Shown here: piece after piece, positions 4,716 through 20,192 of the stretch
Numbering within the stretch: position 1 is the first letter of the stretch
How the letters are laid out: each line of letters begins with the position of its first letter
NCBI RefSeq assembly: GCF_014646055.1
Contig: NZ_BMMS01000021.1
Location: 62,001 to 126,000, forward strand
Direction of reading: 5' to 3'
Origin: Wenjunlia tyrosinilytica
GTDB lineage: Bacteria; Actinomycetota; Actinomycetes; Streptomycetales; Streptomycetaceae
Length of the DNA: 64,000 bases
Notes under the pieces: generated by a model
The model's database searches: none
Told to the model about the DNA's origin: nothing
Seen by the model: only the letters and a program-made list of their open reading frames with translations
Position numbers and translations under genes: made by a program

Positions 4716-4836
4716 GGTGGACAACCTCACCCCGCCGCGTTCCCTTCCACAACGGGCAGACCGTCAGTCGAGCGGCGCCGCGCATGACACCCTGTCCGGC
4801 GCGCGCGGCCGACTCCGGTGTGCGCCGCGCCGTGCC

Positions 4837-5286
4837 TCAGGCCACCTGCCGCTCCTCCACGGACAGGTCGTAGACCCATTGGCGGCGCTCGCGGGGCGGC
4901 TCGGACTTGGCCCCGTTGAAGGTGCGCACGACCAGGTGCGGGTCGACGGTCACCGTGGTCACCCCGAGCGGCAGGAAGAGCGCCCTGAGCGGGCCCTGGG
5001 CCAGGCGCACCCACCGCTGCCCCCGGCCGAGGGCGCGTACGAGCTGCTGTTCACTGGTGAACGCCACGGCGGTCGGCGTCCCCCGCGGTGTGCGGTACAT
5101 CTGCGGAACGCATCCGACGGGAGCGGTCCGCACGGGCACGTAGTACGGCCCCCGGCGCGACGGGTGGGGCGGCCGGTCCGCGGGCGCACCGCCCTGCGGA
5201 CGACCGTCCCGCGCAGGGGCACCGCCCTCCGGAGGGGCACCGGCTGGTCCGTCCGGGACGGTCCCGGACGCTTGGGCGGTCCGCAT
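4837..5286 (-). CDS. small SAV_915/SseB-like protein at the end of the biosynthetic cluster
   Basis: A 149-residue soluble protein with a Pro/Gly-rich N-terminal 45 residues, then a compact domain containing YYVPVRT, TPTAVAFTSEQQLVRALG and WVRLAQGPLRALFLPLGV. This pattern resembles the short actinobacterial SAV_915 family and the N-terminal half of SseB proteins; the assignment is tentative and no biochemical role is known. The ATG at 5286 lies only 5 bp after the stop of the ATP-grasp-rhodanese gene, so it is very probably cotranscribed with it. Whether it belongs to the cluster or merely sits at its end is not clear. Confidence 0.6.
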   Translation of the reverse strand: MRTAQASGTVPDGPAGAPPEGGAPARDGRPQGGAPADRPPHPSRRGPYYVPVRTAPVGCVPQMYRTPRGTPTAVAFTSEQQLVRALGRGQRWVRLAQGPLRALFLPLGVTTVTVDPHLVVRTFNGAKSEPPRERRQWVYDLSVEERQVA

Positions 5287-5291
5287 GGCGC

Positions 5292-6935
5292 TCAGGCCCC
5301 CCGCTCGATCGGGTAGCCGCCCCGCTTCCAGTACTCGAAGCCACCGATCATCTCCTTCGTCCTGAAGCCCAGCTCGGCGAGCCTGGCCGCGCCCCGGGTC
5401 CCCCCGTTGCAGGCCGGGCCCCAGCCGTAGGTCACATAGAGCGTGTCCGGGTCCAGACCGGCCACCGCCTCCGCGGTGATCCCGGCGTGGGGCAGGCTCC
5501 TGGCACCGGGGACATGGCCCTCGGCATGGGCGGCCGGCTGCCGGACGTCCAGGACGACGAAGCCCTGGACCCCCTCGGTGAGGTCGTGGTGCACGTCGAA
5601 CGGGTCGGTCTCACTGGCGAGCCGCGCCCGGTGGTACGCCGCCGCCTCCAGGGCAGGCGCCGCGGGGATGCCCAGGACCCTGGACGCAGTGCGGTAGCGG
5701 ATCGGCCGGTAGCCGGCCAGGCGCTCGAAGTCCCGGTAGGCGGCGTCGTAGTCCTTGTTCGACACCAGGAAGGTGCCGCCGTTGGCGGTCAGGGAGTTGC
5801 TCTTCTCGATGCGCTCACCGACCCTGACCTTCCAGGTCATCTCGACGTCGCTCTCGAGGTCGGGCTCGATCAGCTCCTCGACGACGCCGCTGGCCTTGGG
5901 GACCACGCCGTCGAAGCAGTAGATCTGCTCGCCGTCGTAGGGAAGGCTCTTGATGCCCGACTCGATCTCGAAGGCGAGATTGACCAGCGCCACACCGTAG
6001 TTGCGCTGCATGGCGGCCAGTCCCGCGAGGCCCTTGAAGCGGGCGCCCACCTCGAGGAAGATCAGCTCGTCGTCCGGGGTGAGGAACAGCTCCAGGTGCG
6101 AGCCTCCGTCGAGCCGCCCGAGGGCGTCCAGGGCACGCTCCCCGAAGGCGACCATGCGGGGCACCCGGGGGTCGGAGTCGATGAGGTTGATGTCGGCGTT
6201 GACCTTGCCGTTGGGCACCTCGAAGGAGTTGACGAGGTACTCGGTGACACCGGCGAAGACGGTCGCGCCGTCCTCGGTCACGATGTTGACGCTGTAGATG
6301 GTCCCCTCGACGAACTCCTCGTACTCGTAGGAGCGTCCGAGGTCACCGGGCAGCGCGGCGAACTCCTCCCAGTCGGTGATCTTGTGGACGCCCTCGGCGC
6401 AGGCGGCGTCGACCGGCTTGAGGATGAACGGCAGGCCGACCTCCCCGACGATCCTGGCGTAGTAGGCGGCCTCGTCGAAGGCGCGCAGCTGGGAGTCGAA
6501 GCGGCCGAACTTCGGCACCCGCACCCCGGCGGCCACCAGGCGCTGCTTCATCAGGCACTTGTCGCGGTAGGGCAGGATGTCGGCGGTCTTCGGCCCCCGG
6601 ATCCCGAAGTGCGCGCGGATCTCGGCGGCGACCATCATGTCCTGCTCGTCCCAGCAGTGCAGTGTCAGGTCCTCGAGCGCGACGTCGCGCAGGATCTCGC
6701 CGACCACCTCGCGGGTGGCGTCGAGGTCGACCAGGGAGTGGAGCATCGGTGTCGGGTCGGGCAGGCCGCACGGCACGACATGGACGTCGGCGAGCCCGTC
6801 GCGCAGCGGCGGTGTCAGGTTCTCGACGTCCCGGTCGGCGAAGACGCCGATGATGCGGACCCCGTCGGGTTCGGCGAGCAGGTCGTGGCGGAACGCCGCG
6901 TAGCCCCGCGTGGATATGACGACTGCTGTCTTCAT
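5292..6935 (-). CDS. ATP-grasp ligase fused to a C-terminal rhodanese domain
   Basis: A 547-residue protein. Residues 1 to about 400 form an ATP-grasp carboxylate-amine ligase: an N-terminal Rossmann-like lobe (MKTAVVISTRGYAAFRHDLL), KTADILPYRDKCLMKQRL introducing the ATP-binding lobe, the nucleotide lysine in PFILKPVDAACAEGVHK, hinge YEYEEFVEG, and the Mg-binding LIFLEVGARFKG. Residues about 444-547 are a rhodanese: FVVLDVRQPAAHAEGHVPGA, then the active-site loop CNGGTR with Cys509, matching CxxGxR, so sulfurtransfer is plausible. The start ATG overlaps the stop of the aminotransferase gene as ATGA, so it is translationally coupled. Upstream in-frame codons are a shadow of that gene. Predicted role: joining two amino acids, possibly with sulfur delivery. 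The substrate is unknown. Confidence 0.88.
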   Translation of the reverse strand: MKTAVVISTRGYAAFRHDLLAEPDGVRIIGVFADRDVENLTPPLRDGLADVHVVPCGLPDPTPMLHSLVDLDATREVVGEILRDVALEDLTLHCWDEQDMMVAAEIRAHFGIRGPKTADILPYRDKCLMKQRLVAAGVRVPKFGRFDSQLRAFDEAAYYARIVGEVGLPFILKPVDAACAEGVHKITDWEEFAALPGDLGRSYEYEEFVEGTIYSVNIVTEDGATVFAGVTEYLVNSFEVPNGKVNADINLIDSDPRVPRMVAFGERALDALGRLDGGSHLELFLTPDDELIFLEVGARFKGLAGLAAMQRNYGVALVNLAFEIESGIKSLPYDGEQIYCFDGVVPKASGVVEELIEPDLESDVEMTWKVRVGERIEKSNSLTANGGTFLVSNKDYDAAYRDFERLAGYRPIRYRTASRVLGIPAAPALEAAAYHRARLASETDPFDVHHDLTEGVQGFVVLDVRQPAAHAEGHVPGARSLPHAGITAEAVAGLDPDTLYVTYGWGPACNGGTRGAARLAELGFRTKEMIGGFEYWKRGGYPIERGA

Positions 6936-8215
6936 GACTGGATGGTCCCGTCTCCTGCGAGCTCGCTCAGGGACGCCGCGACGGTGTCGAGGCCGAGCGA
7001 GAGGTTGACCTGGCTGATCGTCAGCGGGGGCAGGAGCTTGAGCACTTCGCTCCCCCGCCCGCACGACTCGATGACCAGGCCCTTCTCGAAGCAGAGCCTG
7101 GAGACCTTGCCCGCCGTCACTCCGGGGACGTCGCTGAGGTCGATGCCCCACATCAGCCCACGGCCGCGCACCGGTATCCCCAGGGGACCGGTGACCCTGC
7201 GCTGGAGGAAATCGGCGACGAGCTCGCCCTTCTTGCGGACCTTGGCGGCGAAGGCGTCGTCGGACCAGTAGTGGCGGATGGCGGTGGCCGCGGCGACGAA
7301 GGCGAGCTGGTTGCCGCGGAAGGTGCCGTTGTGCTGGCCCGGCTGCCACACGTCCAGCTCGGGCTTCATCAGCAGGACGGCCATGGGCAGGCCGTAGCCG
7401 CCGATCGACTTGGCCAGGGTGACCATGTCGGGTTCGATCCCGGCGGGTTCGAAGGAGAAGAACGTTCCCGTGCGCCCGCACCCGGCCTGGATGTCGTCCA
7501 CGATCAGCAGGATCCGGTGGCGGTCGCACAGCGCCCGAAGCTGCTTGAGGAACGGGATCGGGGCGGCATAGACACCGCCCTCGCCCTGCACGGTCTCCAG
7601 CAGCACGGCGGCGGGCTTGTCCACACCGGAGCTGGGGTCCTCCAGCAGGCGGCGCAGCAGATCGAGGCTGTCGAAGTCCCCCAGCGGGGTCTGCGGGTAG
7701 GGGATGTGGGTGACGAACGGCAGCGTCTGGTGCAGCCCCTGGCGGAAGTACCCGGACGCGGTCGCGGCCAGCGATCCGGTGCTCACGCCGTGGAAGCCGC
7801 CGCTGAAGGCGATCACGGTGGAGCGGCCGGTGGCCAGGCGGGCCAGCTTGAGCGCCGCCTCGACGGCGTTGGTGCCCGAGGGGCTGGTGAACTGGACCTT
7901 GTAGCCGAGTCCGCGCGGACGCAGGATGTGCTCGCGGAAGGCGTCCAGGAAGTCCGCCTTGGCGGAGGTGGCCAGGTCCAGGCCGTGCACCAGGCCGTCG
8001 CCGCCCAGGTAGTCGATCAGCGCCCGTTTGATGCTGTCCGGGTTGTGCCCGTAGTTCAGCGAACCCGCACCGGCGAGGAAGTCGATGTAGTACCTGCCGT
8101 CGGCGGTGGACAGGCAGTCGCCCTTGGCGGTGGAGAACAGGGCGGGGAACGACCGCGAGTAGGAGCGGACCGCCGACTCCGCCGCCTCGAAGACCGTCTC
8201 GTCGATGACGCTCAT
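6932..8215 (-). CDS. EctB-like L-2,4-diaminobutyrate:2-oxoglutarate aminotransferase
   Basis: A 427-residue class III PLP aminotransferase. It resembles EctB along its length: SAVRSYSRSFPALF at the start, FLAGAGSLNYGHN, GGDGLVHGLDLATSAK, SPSGTNAVEAALKLAR, LIVDDIQAGCGRTGTFFSFE, and the PLP lysine K269 in TLAKSIGGYGLPMAV. EctB converts L-aspartate 4-semialdehyde and glutamate to L-2,4-diaminobutyrate. The ectoine genes ectA and ectC are absent nearby, so the diamino acid is probably a building block for the surrounding cluster. A clear GGAGGAATC ribosome site precedes the ATG, the gene starts 16 bp after the PurD-like gene, and its stop overlaps the next start. Exact substrate is inferred from family similarity. 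Confidence 0.92.
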   Translation of the reverse strand: MSVIDETVFEAAESAVRSYSRSFPALFSTAKGDCLSTADGRYYIDFLAGAGSLNYGHNPDSIKRALIDYLGGDGLVHGLDLATSAKADFLDAFREHILRPRGLGYKVQFTSPSGTNAVEAALKLARLATGRSTVIAFSGGFHGVSTGSLAATASGYFRQGLHQTLPFVTHIPYPQTPLGDFDSLDLLRRLLEDPSSGVDKPAAVLLETVQGEGGVYAAPIPFLKQLRALCDRHRILLIVDDIQAGCGRTGTFFSFEPAGIEPDMVTLAKSIGGYGLPMAVLLMKPELDVWQPGQHNGTFRGNQLAFVAAATAIRHYWSDDAFAAKVRKKGELVADFLQRRVTGPLGIPVRGRGLMWGIDLSDVPGVTAGKVSRLCFEKGLVIESCGRGSEVLKLLPPLTISQVNLSLGLDTVAASLSELAGDGTIQS

Positions 8216-8231
8216 GATTCCTCCGTGGGCC

Positions 8232-9638
8232 CTAGACGTGGTCCGAGTGGGCGGCCTGGAGGAGCGCGTCCCCCAGGTCCGGCCGGCCGATGTCCGTGCG
8301 GGGCGCGGGCAGCTCCGTGCGGGGCGCCCCGGTGGACGCCCGCCGTGCGCCGATGTCCGAGCGGCTGCGCGCGCCGGGGAACGAGATGCGGGCGACCTGC
8401 TCGTAGGCGTGTGCCCGTGCCTGCTCGAGCGTGGTCCCCGAGCCGACGACGTGCAGGACCCGGCCGCCGCTGGTGACCGGTCCGCCGCCCGGCCCCTTGC
8501 GCATCCCGGCGTAGAACACCTGGGCCCGCTCCGGGGCCTCGGTGCCGAGCCCGCTGATCGGCAGCCCGGTCTCGAACTCGCCGAAGGGCCAGCCCGGTCC
8601 GGCCGCCGGGTCCGAGGGGTCCACCGGGCCCTGGGTCACCGCCACACTGCAGCGCACCAGGTCGTCGGTGACCAGGCGGCAGCGGTCCAGGTCCTGCTTG
8701 AGCACCGCCCGGCACAGATCGGAGAAGTTGCTCCGCACCGACGGCAGGACGGCCTGGGCCTCGGAGTCGCCGAACCGGGCGTTGATCTCGATGACCTTCA
8801 GGCCGTCGCCGGTGATCATCGCGCCGATGTAGACGAAGCCGGTGAAGCCCAGTTCCTCGTCGCGCACGCCCCGTGTCAGCGGTTCGAGCAGCTCGCGGCG
8901 GATCCGGTCGCGCAGGTCGCCGCCGGCCAGCGGGTGGGGGGCTACCGATCCCATCCCGTCGCAGTTCTTGCCCAGGTCGCCGTCGAGGGCGCGCTTGTAG
9001 TCCTCGGCGCAGGGGAACATCAGGTGGTTCACCCCGTCGAGCAGGGCGAACACCGAGATCTCCCGTCCGAAGAGACGTTCCTCCACCACGACGTGGAAGT
9101 CCTCGCCCTGAGCGCGCGCGAAGGCGTCGACCGCTTCCTCGGCGTCGGCCGCGGTGTCGCACACCACGGCGCCGTCCCCGTAGGGGGTCAGCCCGTCGGT
9201 CTTGACCACCACCGGGTGGGTGCGGCCCCGGATGTAGGCCTTGGCCTTGTCCGGGTCGCCGAACGCCTCATAGGCGGCGGTCGGCAGGCCGTGGCGCTCG
9301 AGGAAGACCTTGCTGCGCTCCTTGCTCGACTCCAGCGCGGCGGCGGCCTTCGTGGGGCCGATGACCCGGTGCCCGCGGGCGGCGAGCACATCCACGTAGC
9401 CGATGGACAGCGCGTCGATGTTGGCGACGAGGACGAACTCCACCTGGTGCCGGCTCAGGAACTCCAGCGCCGTGGCGGGGTCGTCCAGGCGCACCTCGGG
9501 CACCGGCACGATCCGCTCGTGCTCGATGACGTCGCAGCCGGGACCGTAGTACACCGTCACGTCGGGATCGGTGCGGACGAACAGGTCGCACAGCGCGTGG
9601 CCGCGCCCGGTCCCCCCGACCAGCAGGACGCTCGTCAT
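8232..9638 (-). CDS. PurD-like ATP-grasp ligase in biosynthetic cluster
   Basis: A 468-residue ATP-grasp enzyme with the architecture of phosphoribosylamine-glycine ligase. The N-terminal motif is LLVGGTGRGHAL instead of the GxGGREHAL of housekeeping PurD. ATP-binding elements are HPVVVKTDGLTPYGDGAVV and VVVEERLFGREISVFALLDG; the metal-binding part is LKVIEINARFGDSEAQAVLP. A PurD-like C-terminal domain follows (GGRVLHVVGSGTTLEQARAHAYEQVARI), and the last 55 residues are a low-complexity tail. Divergence from PurD and location in a biosynthetic operon suggest it ligates another carboxylate and amine, perhaps a diaminobutyrate derivative. It is coupled by an ATGA overlap to the desaturase upstream. 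Being the housekeeping purD is unlikely, but I cannot exclude it from one window. Confidence 0.85.
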   Translation of the reverse strand: MTSVLLVGGTGRGHALCDLFVRTDPDVTVYYGPGCDVIEHERIVPVPEVRLDDPATALEFLSRHQVEFVLVANIDALSIGYVDVLAARGHRVIGPTKAAAALESSKERSKVFLERHGLPTAAYEAFGDPDKAKAYIRGRTHPVVVKTDGLTPYGDGAVVCDTAADAEEAVDAFARAQGEDFHVVVEERLFGREISVFALLDGVNHLMFPCAEDYKRALDGDLGKNCDGMGSVAPHPLAGGDLRDRIRRELLEPLTRGVRDEELGFTGFVYIGAMITGDGLKVIEINARFGDSEAQAVLPSVRSNFSDLCRAVLKQDLDRCRLVTDDLVRCSVAVTQGPVDPSDPAAGPGWPFGEFETGLPISGLGTEAPERAQVFYAGMRKGPGGGPVTSGGRVLHVVGSGTTLEQARAHAYEQVARISFPGARSRSDIGARRASTGAPRTELPAPRTDIGRPDLGDALLQAAHSDHV

Positions 9639-10807
9639 ACCCGGCTCCCCTGCGGATCACGGCGCACCTGCTCGGGCGCCGGGACGGTGATGGCGAGGTC
9701 GTCGGGCAGCCCGACGCGGTTGTCGTCGACCTGCCCGGCGGCGCGCAGGTGGTCGGCGAGCGAGCCCCAGACCTCGGTGTAGCGCTCGGAGCCGCTGTCG
9801 ATGTCCTCGCTGCGCACGTAGTTGGAGTTGGCCCAGTCGCAGGTCGGCTTCACATGGTGGACGTCGTGCTGCACGGTGTCGCCGACGAGCACGAACATCC
9901 GGTACGACGAGTGCACGACCAGCATCCGGTAGGTCCAGCGGGTCCAGGCGAGCGCGCGCCGCACACCGGTGGCCTCGGGGCCGGGGACCGCCTCGCCGCA
10001 CACACGGCCGAAGGTCAGCAGGTCGCGCTGGTGGCGGGAGAGCTTCTCGCGGTTGCCGAACAGCCACCAGCGGTGCTCGGTCATCGTGTAGAGGTACGTG
10101 CAGGACTGGAAGACCACGGAGACGGGCACCAGCCACAGCACCAGGTACTCCACCCACCAGCCGGTCAGGCCGACGAAGGCGGCGGTGGCGGCGAGCCAGG
10201 TCAGCGACATCACCAGCCGGTAGCGGGGGCGGACACCGGCGACGTTGGACTTCAGCCGCCCGAGGAAGAACCCGCCGTGGTGGCGGGGCGAGAGCAGCGC
10301 GCCCCACAGGTACCGGCGAAACTCCGAGCGGGTCATGCCCGGCCGCATTCCGGTCGACATCAGATAGGTGGTGTCGATGTCCTTGGTGGAGCACGGGTAG
10401 GCGTGGTGGGTCAGGTGCTCCTTGCGGTTCTCGTCGTACGGGGTCCGCCAGAGCACCGTCGTGATCAGCTCGCCGACCGCCCGGTTGGCCCACGCGGTCC
10501 TGGCGAACATCCGGTGCAGGGTCTGGTGGACCACCACCACGTCGAGTCGCCGCATGCCGCCGCTGGTCAGCAGCCAGCTCAGGAGCAGCACCGGTACCGA
10601 CCACGCGGTGAACGGGTGCAGTGCCCGGGCCCCGATGCCGATGCCGACGGCGATCTGGGCCAGGCCCAGCAGTCCCGCCTTGTTGGGGCTCCACGGGATG
10701 AGCTGGCGGCCGCCCTTGAGCGGCACCCCGGTCACCCAGGTCAGATACGGCTGGACGAAGCGGGGCAGACCACGCATCGTCTCGCGCGGCTCTACAGCTT
10801 CTTGCAC
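9635..10807 (-). CDS. membrane diiron fatty acid desaturase-like oxygenase
   Basis: A 390-residue integral membrane protein of the fatty acid desaturase superfamily. The three histidine boxes that bind the diiron centre are present: HQTLH at residues 94-98, HLTHH at 131-135 and HDVHH at 314-318. Hydrophobic helices lie around residues 45-80, 200-215 and 218-240. Family members desaturate, hydroxylate or form acetylenes on acyl chains, and some act on amino-acid-derived substrates in natural product pathways. In this operon there is no acyl carrier protein or fatty acyl ligase, so a small amino acid or peptide substrate is possible; that is inference. The GTG start at 10807 has AGGAGAG upstream. 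The stop overlaps the start of the PurD-like gene. Confidence 0.88.
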   Translation of the reverse strand: MQEAVEPRETMRGLPRFVQPYLTWVTGVPLKGGRQLIPWSPNKAGLLGLAQIAVGIGIGARALHPFTAWSVPVLLLSWLLTSGGMRRLDVVVVHQTLHRMFARTAWANRAVGELITTVLWRTPYDENRKEHLTHHAYPCSTKDIDTTYLMSTGMRPGMTRSEFRRYLWGALLSPRHHGGFFLGRLKSNVAGVRPRYRLVMSLTWLAATAAFVGLTGWWVEYLVLWLVPVSVVFQSCTYLYTMTEHRWWLFGNREKLSRHQRDLLTFGRVCGEAVPGPEATGVRRALAWTRWTYRMLVVHSSYRMFVLVGDTVQHDVHHVKPTCDWANSNYVRSEDIDSGSERYTEVWGSLADHLRAAGQVDDNRVGLPDDLAITVPAPEQVRRDPQGSRV

Positions 10808-10894
10808 GGCTCTCTCCTATGTCCTGGTGCGGTGGTCCTGTTCACGCAGCCTTCGGTGTCGGGGGCCGCGGGCACGCCCCGCGGCTCGGGGATG

Positions 10895-13036
10895 TCAGCG
10901 CAGGGAGGCGGGGTCGGGGGCGGCGCCGCCGAAGAGGATGTCGTTGGTCTCGTGGGTCATCGGGCGCTCGAGGTCGTCGGCGTTGACCCAGGTCATGTTC
11001 ACGATCGTGCGGCGGCCCTCGCCTCGGATCGGGTACACCCGGTGCATCGTGGTGTCGGTCTTGATGACATAGGCGTCACCGGGCTGGAACGCGTAGGAGC
11101 GCACCTGGCTCTTGATGAGCGCCCCGTGGACATCGGGGTTCTCCTTGTCCCAGGAGGTGTGCGGCACCGCCTGCACGAAGCCGCCCTCGCGGTGATGGGG
11201 GGCCTCGAGGATCAGGACGAACCCGTAGGTGTAGTCGTCCCAGTGCCAGCCGTGGGTGTCACCGGTCCTGCCCAGGCGGCTGATGACGTAGTGCTCGCCC
11301 GCGTAGGGGCAGGTGAAGACCTCTTCGCCGACGACCCGGGTGAGCAGGTCCTTGACCGCGGGGGCGAAGTAGGTGGCGTGGATGAGCGGGCCGTGCTCGA
11401 CGATGACGGGCTGGCCCACGGTGGTCATCTGGCGCGGGGTGTTGTCGGTGACCTTGAACGTGAGGTTCCTGGACACGCCGTGCTCGTCCATGATGCCGAA
11501 GGCCTCGGCCCTGAGCTCCTCCAGCAGGGCGGGCGGGCAGAACCCCCGCAGCGGAACGACGTGTTCGCGCTTGAACCCCTCGCGCAGCTCGGCCGTCGCC
11601 GCCTCGTCGTACACCCGCGCGAAGTGCTCCTCGTAGAGGGTGTCGAGGCGGGCGAGGGCGTCGGTTCCGGCGGGCGGGGCGGTCTGGATGTCGGTCACGG
11701 GTGTCCTTTCTCGGCGATCGCCGCCTGATGCGTCGCGGCGCAGCGGGATGAAGCGGGGGTGGGACAGGATGTTGTTGGGGTCGTCGCCCAGCGGTCTGCC
11801 GTTGACGACGAGGTCGCGGCGGGCCCGGAGCGCCTTGGAGTGCAGCTCGGCGAGGTCGTCGGCGTCGACCACGAACATGGCGATGACGTCGAGCTGGTCG
11901 GCGCGCCCCGACAGCGGCCCACCGAGCGGCTTGGTCACCCGGCGGCAGTCGGCCGCCTCGGGGAAGTCGACCGAGACGAGCTCGGTGGCGTCCGACGGCG
12001 GGAGCACCAGCATGTCGACGGCGTAGCGGGTGGGGCGGGCGATGAACGACAGGTCGGGTGCGATCCCGCAGGCGATGTCGGTCAGCGGCACCGCGTAGTC
12101 GATGCCGAACGCCTTGCCGTAGCTGACAACGTTGGCCACCCCTCCGACCCGGATGTTGAAGTCGATCAGTTCGATCGGGCCCTGCGGGGAGACCATGACC
12201 TCCAGGTGGGTCGCCCCGTGGGAGATGCCGAGGCTCTTGTGGAAGGCCTCGGCCTTGGCGGTGATCTCGGCCAGCCGCGGGTGCGGGTAGGGGAAGACGA
12301 CGCCCTGCTCCACGACGGGGTCGGCGGCGAGCACATAGCGGCCGGTGAGGCCCACGGTGTTGACGCGGCCGCGGTCCACCAGGGACTCCACCGACAGCAG
12401 TTCGCCCTCGGCCTTCTCCTCCAGCACGAATCCGCCGTGGGCGCTGATGTACTCGCTCATCAGCGGGTTGCCGACCTCGACGGAGCCGGTCTGCCGGGCG
12501 GCCTCGTGCAGCTCCTCCAGGGAGGAGACGATGAAGCACAGCGCGCTGCCCGTGCCATTGGCCGGCTTGAGCACCGCCGGGCGCTCGAACTGCCAGCGGT
12601 CCCAGGTCAGCGCCTCGGTCAGCGTCGTGGAGCGCAGCTCGGACAGGCCCTCGGCGTAGAGCTTGCGGCGCACATGGGTCTTGTCGAGGGCGCGGGAGAC
12701 GGATCCGGCACCGCTGTTGGGCAGTCCGGCGAGCTCGCGCAGCTCGGCCTCGAACGGCAGGACGGCCTCGAAGGCGGCGTAGGTGCCTACCACGTCGTAG
12801 CGGTGGTGCAGATCGAGGATCACGGTGCGGATGGTCTCGTTGTCGGACCAGGAGGCGATGGGGACCACCTCGTCGACGACGCCCTCGCGGACCTCGAACG
12901 GGCCCGAGTCACGCAGCGGGTCGTGGTTGAGGGCGATGACGCGGAAGCCGCGCCGTTTGGCCTCTTCCGCGATCAGAACCATGTGGTTCAGCAGTTCGAG
13001 CAGGACGAAGGCCCGCTGCTTCGCTGGCGTGTTCAC
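10895..13036 (-). CDS. ATP-grasp ligase fused in frame to BesD-family Fe(II)/2-oxoglutarate oxygenase
   Basis: One open frame of 713 codons from a GTG with AGAGGAG seven bases upstream. Residues 1-446 are an ATP-grasp amino acid ligase: FVLLELLNHMVLIAEEAKRRGF, PAVLKPANGTGSALCFIVSS, FVLEEKAEGELLSVESL, and GPIELIDFNIRVGG for metal binding. From residue 447 the sequence is a BesD/HalB-type enzyme of about 267 residues. Counting from the internal GTG, the iron ligands are H152, D154 (motif HWDDY) and H219; the 67-residue H-to-H spacing equals BesD 137-204. BesD has Gly where D154 stands, so hydroxylation rather than chlorination is expected. Residues matching those I recall binding lysine in BesD (R89, E135, H149, D155, N234, T236) are all present. 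The two halves may be separate proteins in vivo: see the internal start feature. Confidence 0.85.
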   Translation of the reverse strand: MNTPAKQRAFVLLELLNHMVLIAEEAKRRGFRVIALNHDPLRDSGPFEVREGVVDEVVPIASWSDNETIRTVILDLHHRYDVVGTYAAFEAVLPFEAELRELAGLPNSGAGSVSRALDKTHVRRKLYAEGLSELRSTTLTEALTWDRWQFERPAVLKPANGTGSALCFIVSSLEELHEAARQTGSVEVGNPLMSEYISAHGGFVLEEKAEGELLSVESLVDRGRVNTVGLTGRYVLAADPVVEQGVVFPYPHPRLAEITAKAEAFHKSLGISHGATHLEVMVSPQGPIELIDFNIRVGGVANVVSYGKAFGIDYAVPLTDIACGIAPDLSFIARPTRYAVDMLVLPPSDATELVSVDFPEAADCRRVTKPLGGPLSGRADQLDVIAMFVVDADDLAELHSKALRARRDLVVNGRPLGDDPNNILSHPRFIPLRRDASGGDRRERTPVTDIQTAPPAGTDALARLDTLYEEHFARVYDEAATAELREGFKREHVVPLRGFCPPALLEELRAEAFGIMDEHGVSRNLTFKVTDNTPRQMTTVGQPVIVEHGPLIHATYFAPAVKDLLTRVVGEEVFTCPYAGEHYVISRLGRTGDTHGWHWDDYTYGFVLILEAPHHREGGFVQAVPHTSWDKENPDVHGALIKSQVRSYAFQPGDAYVIKTDTTMHRVYPIRGEGRRTIVNMTWVNADDLERPMTHETNDILFGGAAPDPASLR
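11696..11711 (-). promoter_or_regulatory. internal GTG start with ribosome site between the two domains
   Basis: On the minus strand GAAAGGA is followed after four bases by GTG (11698-11696), exactly where homology to the BesD-like oxygenase begins (VTDIQ). In the neighbouring frame a TGA overlaps this GTG as GTGA, the arrangement expected if an upstream gene had its own stop here. This suggests that the oxygenase can be translated on its own and that the ATP-grasp gene may have lost its stop through a one-base change near 11720, or that a true fusion formed recently. Confidence 0.55.
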
Positions 13037-13114
13037 GCTGGGACTCCTCTGGAGGCGGCGTTTCGGACTCGGACTCGGTCTCGGACTCGGGGAGTTGGGG
13101 GAGCGGGGTGGGGC

Positions 13115-14401
13115 TCAGGCGGCGCGGACGGCGGGCTCGGCGGGCTCCTGCGCGGCCGTCTCCTGCGTGGCGGGCTCGATCCGGCGGGCTCTGCGCGGCA
13201 GTTCCCAGCCGGCGACCAGCAGGGCGACGAGCGCGATGTTGACGTAGATCGTGGAGCCGATGCCCAGACCGTCCAGGCCCCAGGAGAAGACGGTGGCGAA
13301 GACGCCCATCAGGCTGTAGCCCATCGCCGTCTGGAGTCCGAGCACCGAGGAGACCTTCGCGGCGGGCGCCTTGGCGATCATCTGCTTGAACTGGTGCACC
13401 CAGATCAGCTCGCCTCCAACCACCATCAAGGAGAAGGCGACCAGGCACAGGTACACATTGCCTTCGAACAGCGGCACAAGGGCGTACAGGGCGGTGATGA
13501 CCACGACGACGGCGAGGTTGAGGGTGCGCTCGTTCCGGTCGGTGATGAATCCGCGGCGGTTGAGGTACTGGTAGAGGAAGACGCCGGTCATGACGGCGAC
13601 GGACTCGAAGGTGAAGAACAGCGCCGTGCCCGATTCCCCCTTGCCGTACCAGACCTGGGGAATGACGGTGATCAGCGTCTCGTAGGTGGCCTGGAAGGCC
13701 GTGACCGAGAGGATGATGTAGAACACCGCGGAGGCGATGCTCTCGTCCCGGGCGATGATGCCGAAGGCATTCCTGATGCCGCGCAGCTTGGTCTCCGCGG
13801 CGCCGCGGGCCGTGCGGATCGACTCCCTGGTCCGCTCCTCGTTCGGCTTCACCAGCAGCATCAGCGCCGCGGCGGTCAGGAAGGTCGCGGAGTCGATGTA
13901 GACGACGACGTTGAACTCGACGAACTTCAGGATGAAGGCACCGGTGGCGGCCGCCACGGCCATGGCGATGGGGAGGCTGGCGTTGAAGACCGGCGAGAAG
14001 AGGTCGGTCTCCTTCTTGGTGAAGAACTGCACCAGTGCCTTGACCCGGGCGTTGTTCACCGCGCTGTTGAGCAGGGCGCGGGCGAAGATGATCCCGATCG
14101 CGTAGGCGAACAGGTCGGGGTCGGAGAAGCCGAGGAAGACCAGGGTCACACCGGCCGCCACGACATTGAGCCACACCAGGAGCTGTTTGGCGTTCTGCCG
14201 GTCGATGTACTGGGCGCCCAGGAGTCCTATGAACAGGTTGGCCGTCCAGTCGGCGGCGAAGACGACGGCGGCCAGGGTGGCGCTTCCGCTCTCGCGGTAG
14301 ACATACGCCACGTACGAGATCATGAGCAGTTTCGAGCCGAAGAGCGAAATGAACGATGCGGCGAAACTCAGCAGGAAGTTCCGGTGCAGGTACAGCTTCA
14401 T
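13115..14401 (-). CDS. MFS transporter, probable exporter of the cluster product
   Basis: A 428-residue protein with about twelve transmembrane helices and a short central loop (KPNEERTRESIRTARGAAETKL, near residues 190-215). The N-terminus is MKLYLHRNFLLSFAASF and helix 2-3 carries the loop GAQYIDRQNAKQLLVW, a variant of the MFS signature. It is the first gene of the leftward cluster and lies 78 bp before the ATP-grasp-oxygenase gene; that gap contains a short ACTCGG-type repeat around 13062-13092 but no gene. I chose the ATG at 14401 because GAGGAG precedes it; an in-frame start eight codons upstream (14425) is possible. As the only transporter in the cluster it is a candidate for export or self-resistance. 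Confidence 0.85.
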   Translation of the reverse strand: MKLYLHRNFLLSFAASFISLFGSKLLMISYVAYVYRESGSATLAAVVFAADWTANLFIGLLGAQYIDRQNAKQLLVWLNVVAAGVTLVFLGFSDPDLFAYAIGIIFARALLNSAVNNARVKALVQFFTKKETDLFSPVFNASLPIAMAVAAATGAFILKFVEFNVVVYIDSATFLTAAALMLLVKPNEERTRESIRTARGAAETKLRGIRNAFGIIARDESIASAVFYIILSVTAFQATYETLITVIPQVWYGKGESGTALFFTFESVAVMTGVFLYQYLNRRGFITDRNERTLNLAVVVVITALYALVPLFEGNVYLCLVAFSLMVVGGELIWVHQFKQMIAKAPAAKVSSVLGLQTAMGYSLMGVFATVFSWGLDGLGIGSTIYVNIALVALLVAGWELPRRARRIEPATQETAAQEPAEPAVRAA

Positions 14402-14559
14402 GGCAGCCCTGACTCCTCGTCTCAATGGCCGGACACCATCAGGGAGCAGCGGACAGCCGATCCCTGGAGTTCCGCTTGAGCGGATTCGGAGGTGGGCCCT
14501 GACCTCGTCACTCGTGTGACGTGACGGCAGCAGGGAGCGGTCGTTCTCCGAGCGGCCGG

Positions 14560-14655
14560 TGCTCAGTGCTGTTCTCGGTACGGGCCGGTGCTGTTCTCAG
14601 CGCTGTCCTCGGTACGGGCTCGGTGCTGTTCTCCGTGCCGGCTCAGTGCTGTTCG
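14560..14655. repeat. short imperfect tandem repeats at the cluster boundary
   Basis: Between the MFS gene and the binding-protein gene the sequence contains about four imperfect copies of a unit near 20-30 bp built on GTGCTGTTCTCGGTACGGG. The last copy runs into the stop-codon end of the receptor gene at 14643. There is no open frame with coding character in the 240-bp gap. The repeats sit at the upstream edge of the biosynthetic operon. Confidence 0.65.
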
Positions 14656-16157
14656 GGGAAGGCGACGTCGAGCACGTCCACGCGGTCCCCGGGGCGGCGG
14701 CGCAGCAGGGGTACGGCCTTGTTGCGCGCGTAGCCGTCGTTGTCCAGGGTGATGTCCCCGCTGGCGCCCGGCACCTTGTTGGTGCCGCTCAGGGCGTACA
14801 GGTTCTGCGCCACGCCGTCGGGTGTGGGCAGTGCCTGCTCGTCCTGCTGTTCCTGCCGCTCCTGGCCGGGGCGGATGGCGAAGACGGCGGTGAGGACGGC
14901 GTCGTGGGCCATGACCGCCTGCCCGTCGGCGAGCGCGGAGCCGGGGAACATCTTCGGGCTGAGGAAGTCCGTCTCCTTGCCGCCCTCGGTGAAGAAGTCG
15001 GCGGCGATCCGGTTCACCGTGGCCTTGTGGCTGTCCTCCCACACCTCGGGGTGGGTCAGGCCCGTGTAGACGAGCGTGATGCGGTTGCGCAGCGACTGGT
15101 CGAACTCGGGGCTGCTGCGCAGGAGTGTCGCGTCGTCACCGGTCACGATGGTGAAGGTGCGGTCGCCGCACGTCCGGTTGCTCAACTGGTTGATGAACAC
15201 CTGGAGTTCGGTGGAGCGCCCGGCGAAGAAGACGGTGTCCACCGTGCCGGCGCACAGATTGGCGTTCAGCGCGGAGAACCGGTTCCCCAGGGAGCCCTTG
15301 GTCGAGTCGTACGAGCCGCCGTCCTCGACGAGACGGCTCCCGTGGCCCTTGAACGCCTTGCGGAAGCCGTCGCGCAGGCTGGTGACGTAGGCGTCCTGCG
15401 CATTGCGGTCGAAGACGAGTTGGACGTCGTTCATCTTCCGGCTCTTGAGGTACGCGGCCGCCGCCTTGGCCTCGTCGCTGTTGGTGGGGGCGACCCTCGC
15501 GAGGGTCTCGACACCCTTGACCTTGTCGGCGGTGAGCACGTCGCTGACCAGCGGTATTCCCTGGTCCGACAGATAGCGCATCGCGTCGGCGGTGGCGCCG
15601 GTGCTGCGGCTGAGCCCGGCGACGGCCACGAGGTGGTCCGGGCTCTTGGCGGCGGCGACGAGCCTTTCCGCGGCGGCCCTCCACTGCTTGGAGTGGTCAC
15701 CGAAGTTGGCGACGACGAGCCGGATCAGCGGGGTGTCGCCGCGCACGGAGGTGTTGTTGGCCCGCCACTGGGCGGCGTAGGCGCCCTGCACACCGTGCTC
15801 CACGGCCTCGCGGTGGCCCCTGCCCCCGGTGAGCGCGTCCATCGGGCGCGCGAACGCCACGGTGACATAGGCGCGGCCGTGGTCCCGGTGCTGTTTGGCC
15901 ACCCAGTCGTTCTGGGCCTTGATCTTCGCCGAGACGTCGTTGAGCTCCGGCTTGAGGAAGGCGTAGGAGCCATCGGTGACGCCGACGCACTCGCCGGACC
16001 GCTTCTCCACCCCGTGGGCGCATCTGGCGCGGGAGTCCTGCCAGGCGTGCCAGCCCAGGAGACCGCCGACGACCGCGCCGACGGCGGCCACCACGAGGGC
16101 GCCGGTCAGCACCGGGTGTCTGAGGTAGAACGGTCCCCTGCCAACAGCCCGTGCCAT
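14643..16157 (-). CDS. membrane-anchored periplasmic-binding-protein-like (type 1 fold) receptor
   Basis: A 504-residue protein. One transmembrane helix lies at residues about 17-38 (HPVLTGALVVAAVGAVVGGLL), followed by a large extracytoplasmic domain of the branched-chain amino acid/ANF receptor type. Indicators are VAVAGLSRSTGATADAMRYLSDQGIPLVSDVLTAD, LARVAPTNSDEAKAAAAYLKSRK and VQLVFDRNAQDAYVTSLRDGFRKAF, matching the strand-helix pattern of Peripla_BP_6. No lipobox and no ABC transporter genes are nearby. It starts 37 bp after the stop of the large NTPase, so the two form one unit, and the pairing suggests a sensor-plus-NTPase module rather than nutrient uptake. Upstream in-frame codons to 16409 are shadow of the NTPase gene. 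The function is not known. Confidence 0.8.
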   Translation of the reverse strand: MARAVGRGPFYLRHPVLTGALVVAAVGAVVGGLLGWHAWQDSRARCAHGVEKRSGECVGVTDGSYAFLKPELNDVSAKIKAQNDWVAKQHRDHGRAYVTVAFARPMDALTGGRGHREAVEHGVQGAYAAQWRANNTSVRGDTPLIRLVVANFGDHSKQWRAAAERLVAAAKSPDHLVAVAGLSRSTGATADAMRYLSDQGIPLVSDVLTADKVKGVETLARVAPTNSDEAKAAAAYLKSRKMNDVQLVFDRNAQDAYVTSLRDGFRKAFKGHGSRLVEDGGSYDSTKGSLGNRFSALNANLCAGTVDTVFFAGRSTELQVFINQLSNRTCGDRTFTIVTGDDATLLRSSPEFDQSLRNRITLVYTGLTHPEVWEDSHKATVNRIAADFFTEGGKETDFLSPKMFPGSALADGQAVMAHDAVLTAVFAIRPGQERQEQQDEQALPTPDGVAQNLYALSGTNKVPGASGDITLDNDGYARNKAVPLLRRRPGDRVDVLDVAFPEQH

Positions 16158-16171
16158 CGTCGCCCCCTGGT

Positions 16172-16199
16172 GGTGCCGGTCTAGCGGTGCCGGTCTAGC
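16172..16199. repeat. 14-bp tandem duplication at the 3' end of the NTPase gene
   Basis: Two exact adjacent copies of a 14-bp unit (GGTGCCGGTCTAGC). Each contains CTA, which read on the minus strand gives TAG; the upstream copy provides the stop of the NTPase frame. It is probably a slippage duplication. Confidence 0.7.
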
Positions 16200-18324
16200 G
16201 GTATCTGTCCGCCTCGTCGTAGAACAGCTGGAATCCGGTGCGCGAACGGGTGCCCAGCGAGCGCAGCAGATCGCCGACGAGCGGGCGCAGCTCGCCCACC
16301 GGGTCGGCCAGCGGGTCGCACAGGATCCACCGGGCCCCGGCGAGCAGCCACAGCAGCCGCTCCGACTCGGACAGGTCGGCGGCGGGTGCGGCGAGCCGTT
16401 CCAGCACACCGCGCGGCTGGGCCTGGCGCGGCAGCCGGTTCGGCGCTGTGGTGATGGTGTTGAACTCCTCCAGCCAGGCGGAGGGGCTGGTGACGCGGTC
16501 CTCCCAGCGCTCCTTGAGGTACGCCACGACCTCGGGCATCGCGTCCACGCTGAGCGCGTGGTGCAGCGCCCGCACGCTCAGCCCCCGCCTGGTGCCGGGG
16601 TCGTGGGCGGCCGCGGCCTCGCGCCGGTACTCCTGGCACAGCCCGGTGTGGACGGAGGTCCATGTGGGCCCGGTGCCCTCCTCGCCGCGGGCGAGGCGGT
16701 GCAGCAGGAGCGTGCGCAGCCATGGGTGGATGTCGCTGATCCGGCGCGGCTCCGGGACAAAGGGGACCATGCCGCGACTGGGCCGTGCCCGGGGGTCGGC
16801 GGAGGCGTCCTCCACGAGCCACAGGCTGTCCTTGAGCTTCTGGTACAGCTGCGGGAATCCGGTGGCGGGAACGGGGATCCACTGGTCGAGCTCGGCCGAG
16901 TCGTCGGGGTCCCAGGCGGCGGCGAGCGAGGCCAGGGAGGCGGCCTCGCCGGGTTCGAAGACCCCGCGCAGGGCGCTGTCCAGCGCGTACTCGCCGAGCG
17001 TGGGGCCGCCGCCGAAGTCCCCGCCGCCCGCGGTGGCGGTGAGCGGGTCGGGGCCCGGTCCCGGTCCTTCGCCGACCAGGCGCACGGGTGTGTCGAGGGC
17101 ACGGCGCAGGGCGTCGGGGCGGCTGGTGCCCTGGGAGCGGTTGAGGATCGCGCCGATGAGTGCGCGCGCGGCCCAGGGGTGGCCCCCGGTGGCCCGGTGG
17201 ACGGCGGCGGTCAGATCGGTGAGGGTGGCGGCCCGCTCGGGGTCGGCGGCGCGGGCGCGGCGGGTCTCGGCGGAGGAGATGGCGTCGAGGTCGCCCAGGC
17301 TCAGCCCCCGCAGCAGGACGGGGTACCACCACGACCCGTCGCTGCCGAGCTGTCGGCGCGAGCGCGTCCAGTCGCCGTATCCGGCGGCGTCGGGAGCGCG
17401 CGGGGGGACCTGGTCCTCACCGGGGGCGATCCGGCTCCAGGTGCGCGGGCGGCGGCGGCTCGCGGCGATCACGAGGAGGGAGTCGCGCTCGCCGGGCCCG
17501 GCGACGTCCCAGGCCTCGCGGACGCGGATGAGCGTGTCGAGGAACGCCGCCCCCGCGGGCGAGTCGGCGTTGTCCAGCACGGCCACGCAGACCCGGCTGC
17601 GGTGCTTGGCCCGGTAGGCGCGCAGGTCGGCGAGGAACGCGCCGCACTGCGCCTCGTCGACGCTGCGTTCCTCGTTGGGATCCCCGGAGTTCCAGTACTG
17701 GTTGAGGGTGGCGAGGGCGTCGCGGGGGTCGGTGCTGTCGCGTCCGTACCACTCCAGGGCGCTGCGGTGCGGGGAGCGGCCGAGGTTCAGGCGCCCGCCG
17801 AGGCCCTCGACGGCCAGGCCCAGGGCGAGGGCGCCGCCGGGCGGCAGCCAGCCGACCTGTTCGAGCAGATCGCCGACCAGGCCCATGCCCTCGCCCTCGC
17901 GGGAGCGCTCGGGGCGGCTGCGCAGGAGTTCGTCGATCTGGCGGCGGGCACGGGCGGGGTCGCGCAGGTGGAGCGGGGCGTCGAGGACGAGCTGGCCGAG
18001 CAGGAGGCGGGGGAAGTGCGGGTTGGGCACGCCGTCGAGGCGGTGGGCGAGCATGAACGCCAGCGCCGAGGCGACCTGTCCGGGGCTGGCCTGCTCGCGG
18101 CCCTCCAGATCGAGGCGGGCGACGGGGACGACCAGTTCGCGGCAGCGCTCCTCGATGCGGACGAGGACCGCGCTCTTGCCGCTGCCGCGCGGGCCGAGGA
18201 GGGCGACCAGCGGTAACTCCGGGCCGCTGCGGCCACTGCCCGCGGGCACCGTCGGGTTGAGGCATTCGTCCAGGAAGCGGTCGGTGATCTCGGTGCTTGC
18301 GCGCAGGACTGCGGGGCGCGTCAC
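16195..18324 (-). CDS. large P-loop NTPase, STAND-like, unknown function
   Basis: A 709-residue soluble protein. Walker A is GPRGSGKS at about residues 44-51 and a probable Walker B is VAVLDNAD near residue 255, followed by LLVIAASRRR as a sensor-like strand and a winged-helix-like region (ALSDLDAI... GHPWAARALIGAIL). The C-terminal half is helical with Trp-rich segments such as WYPVLLRGLSL and HPWLRTLLLHRLA, lacking clear repeats I can name. The overall plan resembles STAND/AAA signalling ATPases. It is cotranscribed with the membrane-anchored receptor, which it overlaps in none of its coding part. The start ATG at 18324 follows a region rich in G; the ribosome site GGGGGAGGG is upstream. 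The partner arrangement suggests ligand sensing, but that is inference. Confidence 0.75.
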   Translation of the reverse strand: MTRPAVLRASTEITDRFLDECLNPTVPAGSGRSGPELPLVALLGPRGSGKSAVLVRIEERCRELVVPVARLDLEGREQASPGQVASALAFMLAHRLDGVPNPHFPRLLLGQLVLDAPLHLRDPARARRQIDELLRSRPERSREGEGMGLVGDLLEQVGWLPPGGALALGLAVEGLGGRLNLGRSPHRSALEWYGRDSTDPRDALATLNQYWNSGDPNEERSVDEAQCGAFLADLRAYRAKHRSRVCVAVLDNADSPAGAAFLDTLIRVREAWDVAGPGERDSLLVIAASRRRPRTWSRIAPGEDQVPPRAPDAAGYGDWTRSRRQLGSDGSWWYPVLLRGLSLGDLDAISSAETRRARAADPERAATLTDLTAAVHRATGGHPWAARALIGAILNRSQGTSRPDALRRALDTPVRLVGEGPGPGPDPLTATAGGGDFGGGPTLGEYALDSALRGVFEPGEAASLASLAAAWDPDDSAELDQWIPVPATGFPQLYQKLKDSLWLVEDASADPRARPSRGMVPFVPEPRRISDIHPWLRTLLLHRLARGEEGTGPTWTSVHTGLCQEYRREAAAAHDPGTRRGLSVRALHHALSVDAMPEVVAYLKERWEDRVTSPSAWLEEFNTITTAPNRLPRQAQPRGVLERLAAPAADLSESERLLWLLAGARWILCDPLADPVGELRPLVGDLLRSLGTRSRTGFQLFYDEADRYR

Positions 18325-18505
18325 AGTGCCCCCTCCCCCGGTTTGTTCCGTCCCTCGGCACCTGACCCGATCAACGGCAGTGACGTTGTGTTGCCCCGTC
18401 AGGTGGTGGCTGTAACCTCCCCGGCGCCGCCCACTGGTTGGATCGGCTCGCCGCCGGGCGGCACGGTGCGCGGGACGCGGGGCCTCGTGGCGCCCGGGAA
18501 CGGCG

Positions 18506-18540
18506 GCGCGCCCGCCCTCCGGGGTGGAGGGCGGGCGCGC
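18506..18540. terminator. strong GC-rich hairpin terminator
   Basis: A perfect 15-bp inverted repeat (18506-18520 with 18526-18540) and a 5-base loop lie about 70 bp beyond the stop of the dehydrogenase gene, in the 283-bp gap before the NTPase start. There is no T tract, as usual in Streptomyces. I see no gene in this gap. Confidence 0.8.
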
Positions 18541-18607
18541 GGCAGCGGTGCCGGTGGGCGCGGGGCCGCGCCGGTCGGGCCGTCTGCCCGTCGCAGCTCC
18601 CGTGGGA

Positions 18608-20059
18608 TCAGAGGTCCAGCGAGGTCATCACGTGCTTGATGCGCGTGTAGTCCTCGAAGCCGTAGCTCGACAGGTCCTTGCCGTAGCCGGACTTCTTGAA
18701 GCCGCCGTGGGGCATCTCGGCGGCCAGGGCGATGTGGGTGTTGATCCACACGCAGCCGAAGTCGAGCTTCTTGGACAGGCGCATCGCGGTGGCGTGGTCC
18801 TTGGTCCACACCGAGGAGGCGAGGGCGTACTCGACGCCGTTGGCCCACTCGACGGCCTGGTCCTCGTCGGTGAACTTCTGGACGGTGATGACCGGGCCGA
18901 AGACCTCGTTCTGGATGATCTCGTCGTCCTGCTTGAGGCCCGAGACCACGGTCGGGGCGTAGAAGTAGCCCTGCTCGCCGACGCGTTTGCCGCCCGTCTC
19001 GACCTTGGCGTGCTCGGGCAGGCGGTCGATGAAGCCGGTGACCTGCGCGAGCTGGTTGGCGTTGTTCAGCGGGCCGTAGAGCACGTCCTCGTCGTCCGGC
19101 TGCCCGGTCTTGGTGCCGGCGGCGAACTTGGCGAGCGCGGCCACGAACTCGTCGTGGATGCCCTCCTGAACCAGCACCCGGGTGGCGGCCGTGCAGTCCT
19201 GGCCGGCGTTGAAGTAGCCGGCGACCGCGATGTCCTCGACGGCCTTGGGGATGTCGGCGTCGTCGAAGACGACGACCGGAGCCTTGCCGCCGAGCTCGAG
19301 GTGGACCCGCTTGAGGTCCTTCGAGGCGCTTTCGGCGACCGCCATGCCGGCGCGCACGGAGCCGGTGATCGACGCCATGGCGGGGATCTTGTGCTCGACC
19401 ATCAGACGGCCGGTGTCACGGTCGCCGCACACCACGTTGAAGATGCCCTTGGGCAGGTCCATCTCCTCCAGCACCGCGCCGATGATCTCGGCGAGCAGGA
19501 CGGTGGAGGCCGGGGTGGTGTCCGACGGCTTGAGGACGACGGTGTTGCCCGCGGCGATGGCCGGGGCGAACTTCCACACCGCCATCATCATCGGGTAGTT
19601 CCACGGGGCGACCTGGGCGCACACGCCCACCGGCTCGCGGCGGATGATCGAGGTCAGGCCCTCCATGTACTCGCCCGCGGCCTTGCCCTCGAGTACGCGG
19701 GCGGCTCCGGCGAAGAAGCGGATCTGGTCGACCATCGGCGGGATCTCCTCGCTCCGCGTCAGGGCGATCGGCTTGCCGGTGTTCTCCGACTCCGCCGCGA
19801 TGAGGTCCTCGGCACGGGCCTCGACCGCGTCCGCGATCTTGAGCAGGGCGCGCTGGCGGACGGACGGGATGGTGTCGCGCCAGGCCGGGAAGGCGGCGGC
19901 AGCGGCCTGCATGGCGGCGTCCACGTCGGCTGCGCCGGACAGCGGAGCCGTGGCGTACACCTGGCCGGTCGCCGGGTTGATCACCTCGGTCGTGCGGCCG
20001 TCCGCGGCGTCCGTGAACTCGCCGTTGATGTAGTTGCGCAGGGCGCGGAGCTCGCTCAC
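18608..20059 (-). CDS. gamma-aminobutyraldehyde dehydrogenase (polyamine catabolism)
   Basis: A 483-residue NAD(P)-dependent aldehyde dehydrogenase. Visible motifs: PWNYPMMMAVWKFAPAIAAGNTVVLKPS for cofactor binding, the catalytic glutamate in LELGGKAP, the catalytic cysteine in YFNAGQDCTAATR, and NEVFGPVITV near the end. The overall sequence matches the aminobutyraldehyde dehydrogenase group that oxidises 4-aminobutanal to GABA after transamination of putrescine. I chose the GTG at 20059 because AGGAGAG stands seven bases upstream; the longer frame to 20173 has a poor, non-homologous N-terminus. It is divergent from the Lrp regulator and aminotransferase genes, with which it probably forms a putrescine degradation unit. 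Confidence 0.93.
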   Translation of the reverse strand: MSELRALRNYINGEFTDAADGRTTEVINPATGQVYATAPLSGAADVDAAMQAAAAAFPAWRDTIPSVRQRALLKIADAVEARAEDLIAAESENTGKPIALTRSEEIPPMVDQIRFFAGAARVLEGKAAGEYMEGLTSIIRREPVGVCAQVAPWNYPMMMAVWKFAPAIAAGNTVVLKPSDTTPASTVLLAEIIGAVLEEMDLPKGIFNVVCGDRDTGRLMVEHKIPAMASITGSVRAGMAVAESASKDLKRVHLELGGKAPVVVFDDADIPKAVEDIAVAGYFNAGQDCTAATRVLVQEGIHDEFVAALAKFAAGTKTGQPDDEDVLYGPLNNANQLAQVTGFIDRLPEHAKVETGGKRVGEQGYFYAPTVVSGLKQDDEIIQNEVFGPVITVQKFTDEDQAVEWANGVEYALASSVWTKDHATAMRLSKKLDFGCVWINTHIALAAEMPHGGFKKSGYGKDLSSYGFEDYTRIKHVMTSLDL

Positions 20060-20192
20060 AGCGTCTCTCCTGTCCTCTCCGGTAGGTCCTGGGCAGCCAC
20101 GACCGGCTACCGGATCGCGGCGCCGCGAGGCTGTATGCACCCAGCCTAACCGTCGTTCTGCCGTATTCGACACACCCCGAAGTGCCCAACAA

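Follow-up and report, generated by a model that had tools for sequence, protein, structure and literature searches.

An oxygenase of the HalD/BesD family, encoded in a biosynthetic operon of Wenjunlia tyrosinilytica, raises the question of which reaction it catalyzes and on which amino acid. To address this, we analyzed a window of 64,000 nucleotides (contig NZ_BMMS01000021.1, positions 62,001 to 126,000) by computation, which established the family, triad and fold of the enzyme, its operon, the conservation of the gene set across phyla and the insertion site. All coordinates below are those of the window. The explanation that fits best as a whole, to which we give a probability of about one half, is a hydroxylase acting on an amine-bearing free amino acid within an operon that supplies L-2,4-diaminobutyrate (DAB) and makes an exported small peptide.

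Family and fold of the oxygenase

The oxygenase gene is located on the minus strand at positions 10895–11698, where 11698 is the first base of a GTG start codon and 10895 the last base of the stop codon. It encodes an Fe(II)/2-oxoglutarate (2OG) oxygenase of 267 amino acids with an HWD...H triad. The PF23169 HalD profile matched this protein with E=2.1e-97 and 325.4 bits, against a cut-off of 26. A chance open reading frame or a wrong strand was rejected on this match (E=2e-97), the plus-strand reading being antisense only. In a phmmer comparison with PDB sequences, the protein matched HalB (8.5e-56), HalD (4.9e-53), BesD (2.3e-47) and Hydrox (6.6e-38). The score with NF042920, the equivalog profile of the BesD L-lysine 4-chlorinase, was 184.2 bits, below the cut-off of 450.

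An AlphaFold (AF2) model of the oxygenase had a pLDDT of 93.9, and a Foldseek search with it returned BesD-family structures at all ranks from 1 to 41. The best of these were HalB with lysine or glycine (rmsd 1.3–1.4 Å), and the top group also contained HalD with ornithine, HalA, Hydrox and BesD. The alignment with BesD (6NIE) ran without gaps over 212 residues (query 37–248, chain 25–236). Oxygenase numbering equals 6NIE numbering plus 12, and 6NIE numbering equals the BesD numbering of an earlier, sequence-only reading plus 3; the constant offset of 15 residues on which that reading relied was thus right, and the residues it had transferred fell at the named positions. The profile match, the ungapped alignment and the Foldseek ranks bear out its assignment, and the oxygenase is a genuine member of the HalD/BesD family PF23169.

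Iron site and second sphere

H152, D154 and H219 of the oxygenase coincide with BesD H137, G139 and H204 (numbering of the sequence-only reading), with 67 residues from H152 to H219. The hydroxylase-type triad H152-x-D154...H219 that had been proposed from this spacing was confirmed, and the 2OG-binding Arg (R230) is also present. BesD, HalA, HalB and HalD have Gly at the position of D154, whereas Asp is found in the window protein and all of its clade (22/22), in place of the Gly or Ala of a halogenase. This supports the expectation that the chloride site is blocked, and hydroxylation is likely because Asp stands where halogenases have Gly. Weighed against the other outcomes of 2OG chemistry, we consider hydroxylation highly probable.

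Hydrox has been turned into a chlorinase by the substitutions D142G, N149I and V223N (PMC13244439). At these positions the window protein carries D154, V161 and N234, which amounts to a hydroxylase ligand inside an otherwise halogenase-like second sphere. A halogenase, or an enzyme with dual activity that chloride might still enter, could be argued from this, since N234 matches and the hydrophobic V161 resembles two of the three switch positions, and since both sequence and fold are nearer to HalB and HalD than to Hydrox. However, the chloride site is filled by D154 in every clade member. Asn is also the commonest state at position 234 among other HWD relatives (38 of 50), so N234 is not halogenase-specific and is weakened as a hallmark. 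With D154 invariant in the clade, halogenation was rejected as very improbable.

Substrate pocket and lid

We compared residues across 76 sequences, namely the window protein, 71 related HWD proteins and four HWG halogenases. R89, E135, H149, D155 and R230 were invariant in all of them (72 HWD and 4 HWG). As R89, E135, H149 and D155 are invariant throughout the family, they mark an amino acid pocket and do not discriminate between DAB, ornithine and lysine. In simulations of BesD (6NIE numbering), the lysine amines were bound by D239, D143 and E123 and the carboxylate by R77, H137 and W241, while N222 contacted the Fe-bound succinate (PMC13244439). Four of these six substrate-gripping residues are kept in the window protein, but they are family-invariant.

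The sequence-only reading had listed R89, E135, H149, D155, N234 and T236 as residues binding the lysine backbone and side-chain amine. All six fall at the BesD positions it named, but the four that are invariant in 76/76 point to no particular diamino acid. N234 is equivalent to N222 of BesD and was rejected as an amine ligand on the published simulations (PMC13244439); it thus belongs to the second sphere and is not one of the amine-binding residues. The description of the amine pocket as intact was also too strong, as D239 and W241 of the BesD lid have no clear counterpart and the sequence THETND is found there. THETND is a variant of the HET motif common to HalB and most HWD relatives. Among the 76 sequences N252 was limited to the clade of the window protein, and L162 replaces the Trp that most relatives carry; at L162, N252 and F256 the window protein departs from most or all of the characterized members compared. 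As for the free diamino acid that had been suggested as substrate, the pocket core is kept and DAB is plausible given the adjacent EctB paralogue, but the pocket residues are not selective. Use of a free amino acid is established for BesD, HalA, HalB, HalD and Hydrox, with lysine- or ornithine-bound structures among the Foldseek matches, and we regard it as probable for the window oxygenase.

Genes of the operon

The oxygenase gene is the third of a seven-gene minus-strand operon (5292–14425), which in upstream to downstream order encodes an MFS protein, an ATP-grasp ligase, the oxygenase, an FA_desaturase-type enzyme, a PurD-like protein, EctB and an ATP-grasp–rhodanese protein. The MFS transporter (13115–14425; Pfam MFS_1, E=1e-20) is a probable exporter, and its gene is collinear in five related loci that have the full seven-gene order and is also present in locus L005. 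The first ATP-grasp ligase (11699–13036) resembles L-amino acid ligases (best PDB match 3vot, E=4e-17). Directly downstream of the oxygenase lies the gene of a membrane di-iron enzyme of the FA_desaturase family (9635–10807; Pfam FA_desaturase, 4.6e-17), with three His boxes, HX3H, HX2HH and HX2HH, at residues 94, 131 and 314. It is distantly GntB-like, matching the GntB profile NF041365 at 2.2e-9 and 37.2 bits, below the cut-off of 380. In guanitoxin biosynthesis, hydroxyarginine is formed by GntB, a transmembrane enzyme (PMC10367076), and the NCBIfam name of the profile, L-arginine gamma-hydroxylase, agrees with this.

The next gene (8232–9638) encodes a paralogue of the GAR synthetase PurD, which passes the TIGR00877 cut-off (333.4 against 288 bits) and has altered substrate loops. 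None of the 13 cluster PurD-like proteins keeps the canonical motifs GGREHA, GPEAPL, NTGGMG and FGDPE; REH is changed to RGH, GPEAPL to [NH][IV][DEQ][AS]L, NTGGMGA to NCDGMGS (NCDGMAS in locus L026) and GDPE to GDSE. These consistent changes imply a changed substrate for what would be a GAR-synthetase-derived ligase, probably forming amides. A diagnostic motif, NCDGM[GA]SxxPH, is kept in 13/13 of the proteins compared, across two phyla. A housekeeping role was rejected because a second, canonical purD exists elsewhere in the genome. A phosphoribosylamine-based nucleoside product, suggested by PurD and by a NudC-like Nudix protein of sister clusters, is disfavored by the loss of GPEAPL and NTGGMG, motifs that we take to have a role in PurD substrate binding.

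The EctB-type L-2,4-diaminobutyrate–2-oxoglutarate aminotransferase (6932–8215) exceeded the TIGR02407 cut-off (568.2 against 552.2 bits) and is a second copy. The nearest EctB paralogue in the genome (51%) is located inside a complete ectABCD operon, so the copy in the window is a dedicated one. No ectA or ectC was found among the neighboring genes scanned with Pfam and NCBIfam profiles, and with the full ect operon elsewhere an ectoine cluster was rejected. The last gene (5292–6935) encodes, by Pfam, an ATP-grasp ligase with a C-terminal rhodanese domain (PDB matches rhodanese 3o3w, 6e-28, and L-amino acid ligase 4wd3, 1.9e-10); both ATP-grasps other than PurD are thus nearest to L-amino acid ligases among PDB matches. 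The rhodanese domain has an intact CNGGTR loop; in several related loci it stands as a module of its own or is absent.

Reading frame shared with the ATP-grasp gene

The upstream ATP-grasp gene and the oxygenase gene are in frame without a stop between them, forming one open reading frame of 713 codons (13036–10895), which the sequence-only reading did not mention. A Shine-Dalgarno-like GAGAAAGGACACCC-GTG is present right before the oxygenase start, and in most relatives a stop closes the frame at the equivalent position, with a Shine-Dalgarno-like sequence and a start codon after it. The bounds 10895–11698 given by that reading, which named no strand, are therefore reasonable. Among the close relatives read, the same read-through was observed only in a Catellatospora locus (L013:8663–10756). 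The physiological protein might then be a fusion of 713 amino acids in which oxidation is coupled to ligation, an arrangement compatible with any substrate; both the stop-free frame and the Catellatospora locus agree with this. However, the ribosome-binding-like sequence and start lie where relatives begin a separate protein, the linker between the two domains is short and unconserved, and a draft-assembly error is possible. We consider the fusion doubtful; most likely the oxygenase is made as a separate protein, perhaps alongside some fusion product.

Conservation across loci

To examine the conservation of the gene set, one genome per species was scanned for 84,980 species; HGWHWDDY was among the six patterns used, and the scan is accordingly biased towards HWD proteins. 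The same gene set was found at 16 other actinobacterial and five proteobacterial loci, giving 22 loci with the window (17 actinobacterial). The oxygenase, GntB-like and PurD-like genes occurred together in 22/22, the GntB-like gene always directly downstream of the oxygenase gene, and the EctB-type aminotransferase occurred in 20/22, with no copy found close to the oxygenase in L016 or L031. The oxygenases of the proteobacterial loci were 41–53% identical to that of the window. In a tree of HWD proteins and four HWG halogenases, from which Hydrox (7JSD) was left out, the 22 oxygenases formed one clade (support 92/86; 95/98 for the 17 actinobacterial rows), with the halogenases outside it. A phylum-wide PF23169 search gave mostly remote matches. 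Nocardia (L055–L058, L060, L061 and others) and other actinobacteria also harbor separate large clades of HWD BesD-family proteins that lack the DAB gene set and probably have different substrates.

Two layouts were observed in actinobacteria, one collinear with the window (L003, L006, L007, L014 and L019) and another in which a NudC-like Nudix protein and a further ATP-grasp of the LAL type are present and the MFS protein is a different one. The NudC-like Nudix hydrolase recurs in sister clusters (L018:11879–12853, L017:16159–17088 and equivalents), and in a gammaproteobacterial locus its gene lies between the desaturase and PurD-like genes. The shortest sets, L026 (Sneathiellales) and L031, consist of the oxygenase, the GntB-like enzyme, an EamA exporter and the PurD-like ligase, to which L026 adds EctB. 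In the open literature searched, whose coverage excludes subscription journals, no described cluster with the same gene combination was found; the conserved cassette is apparently undescribed.

HxD-type 2OG oxygenases are versatile, and the enzyme might act at a late stage, on an intermediate that has already been ligated or hydroxylated, or might desaturate or cyclize its substrate instead of simply hydroxylating it. The constant association of two oxygenases with the divergent PurD-like ligase agrees with such a role, and the lid residues peculiar to the clade hint at a substrate unlike those of known members. In contrast, the carboxylate- and amine-gripping residues are all conserved, and the fold can be superposed on structures that contain free lysine or ornithine, so that we judge this alternative to be unlikely.

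Insertion site

The operon is flanked by genes outside the pathway, both on the minus strand: a PotD-like solute-binding protein (3540–4730; Pfam and NCBIfam profiles) and an aldehyde dehydrogenase (18608–20173; Pfam profile). In two family members (L125 and L126), orthologues of the aldehyde dehydrogenase (80–81%) abut those of the PotD-like protein (58–59%), whereas in the window the two genes are about 13.9 kb apart (4731–18607) with the operon inside. This adjacency is consistent with acquisition of the segment as a block, as a putative island. The block also holds 14643–16157, which gave no Pfam or NCBIfam match, and 16195–18324.

Proposed pathway

In the pathway that we propose, EctB would supply DAB, and the oxygenase and the GntB-like membrane di-iron enzyme would oxidize DAB or a partner amino acid. 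The oxygenase would act on a free amino acid that bears an amine in its side chain, hydroxylating it through the ordinary 2OG-hydroxylase cycle, and D154 would fill the chloride-binding site of the halogenases and keep chloride out. The neofunctionalized PurD-type ATP-grasp and the two L-amino acid ligase-like ATP-grasps would link these units to form a small peptide, which the MFS protein would export. A short peptide or amide is what the PurD-like and LAL-like ligases imply, and a small peptide containing oxidized DAB is the most likely product.

Because EctB is dedicated, DAB is the most economical candidate for oxidation. BesD attacks C4 of lysine. In DAB, C4 bears the amine, and hydroxylation there would give a carbinolamine and then aspartate semialdehyde, undoing the work of EctB. 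Since C4 attack on DAB would be self-defeating, C3 hydroxylation, lysine or ornithine, or a later intermediate has to be considered. That DAB itself is the substrate is a tentative proposal, a little short of even odds, and C3 would then probably be the site; the conserved pocket residues, being family-wide, do not select DAB.

Alternatively, the oxygenase may hydroxylate ornithine or lysine, both of which the sequence-only reading had allowed and the second of which Hydrox hydroxylates, with the DAB from EctB serving as a separate building block of the peptide. Neither amino acid poses a chemical problem for BesD-type attack at C4, HalB and Hydrox have been solved with lysine and HalD with ornithine, and R89, E135, H149 and D155 are conserved. 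However, the clade differs from most lysine and ornithine enzymes at the lid and strand positions L162 and N252, and the minimal proteobacterial sets make no other dedicated amino acid; we regard this alternative as rather unlikely. The preferred reading, hydroxylation of an amine-bearing free amino acid in a DAB operon, is itself opposed by the two loci in which no EctB was found close to the oxygenase, and by L162, N252 and F256, which are unlike the residues of most or all characterized members compared. GntB likewise acts on a free amino acid (PMC10367076).

Significance

BesD-family hydroxylases were already known (7JSD); the HxD triad itself is thus not new, and the oxygenase is a new member of this group. 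Its clade is a well-defined natural set of HWD hydroxylases with a halogenase-like second sphere (N234, V161), and provides a test case for hydroxylation versus chlorination. The compact conserved cassette combines DAB supply, two different C–H oxygenases and a repurposed PurD; the literature searched gave no described product for it. It yields a clear prediction both for mining genomes and for making hydroxylated diamino acids by biocatalysis. More speculatively, a previously undescribed pathway shared across phyla might use a BesD-family hydroxylase and a GntB-like di-iron enzyme to convert EctB-derived DAB to a new oxidized amino acid, possibly doubly hydroxylated or cyclized, which a substrate-switched GAR-synthetase paralogue would then turn into an amide. 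If true, this would represent a new natural-product class and a new use for PurD.

Comparison with known systems

BesD (6NIE), HalA (9OER), HalB (7U6I/7U6J) and HalD (7U6H) share the Pfam family, the His pair, the R/E/H/D carboxylate and amine grip and the Asn/Arg second sphere with the window oxygenase, at 32–37% identity in fold alignments and an rmsd of about 1.3–2.2 Å for most chains. Unlike these enzymes, it has Asp rather than Gly at the halide site and a different gene neighborhood, and it carries THETND instead of the D239/W241 lid of BesD. The lysine hydroxylase Hydrox (7JSD, 9OET), a BesD homologue, has the HxD triad and fold in common with it, and by analogy hydroxylation would be expected of the window oxygenase. 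However, Hydrox is farther from it in sequence than HalB (6.6e-38 against 8.5e-56) and has Asn149 and Val223 where the window oxygenase has Val161 and Asn234.

Among the partner enzymes, GntB and the FA_desaturase-type protein are both of the membrane type (profile match 2e-9), but they are different enzymes from different clusters. PurD and the PurD-like protein are homologous over the whole length and have the ATP-grasp core in common, whereas the substrate loops are changed in 13/13. The ectoine pathway EctABC(D) shares the EctB family; the window set lacks EctA and EctC, and its EctB is instead joined to oxygenases and ligases.
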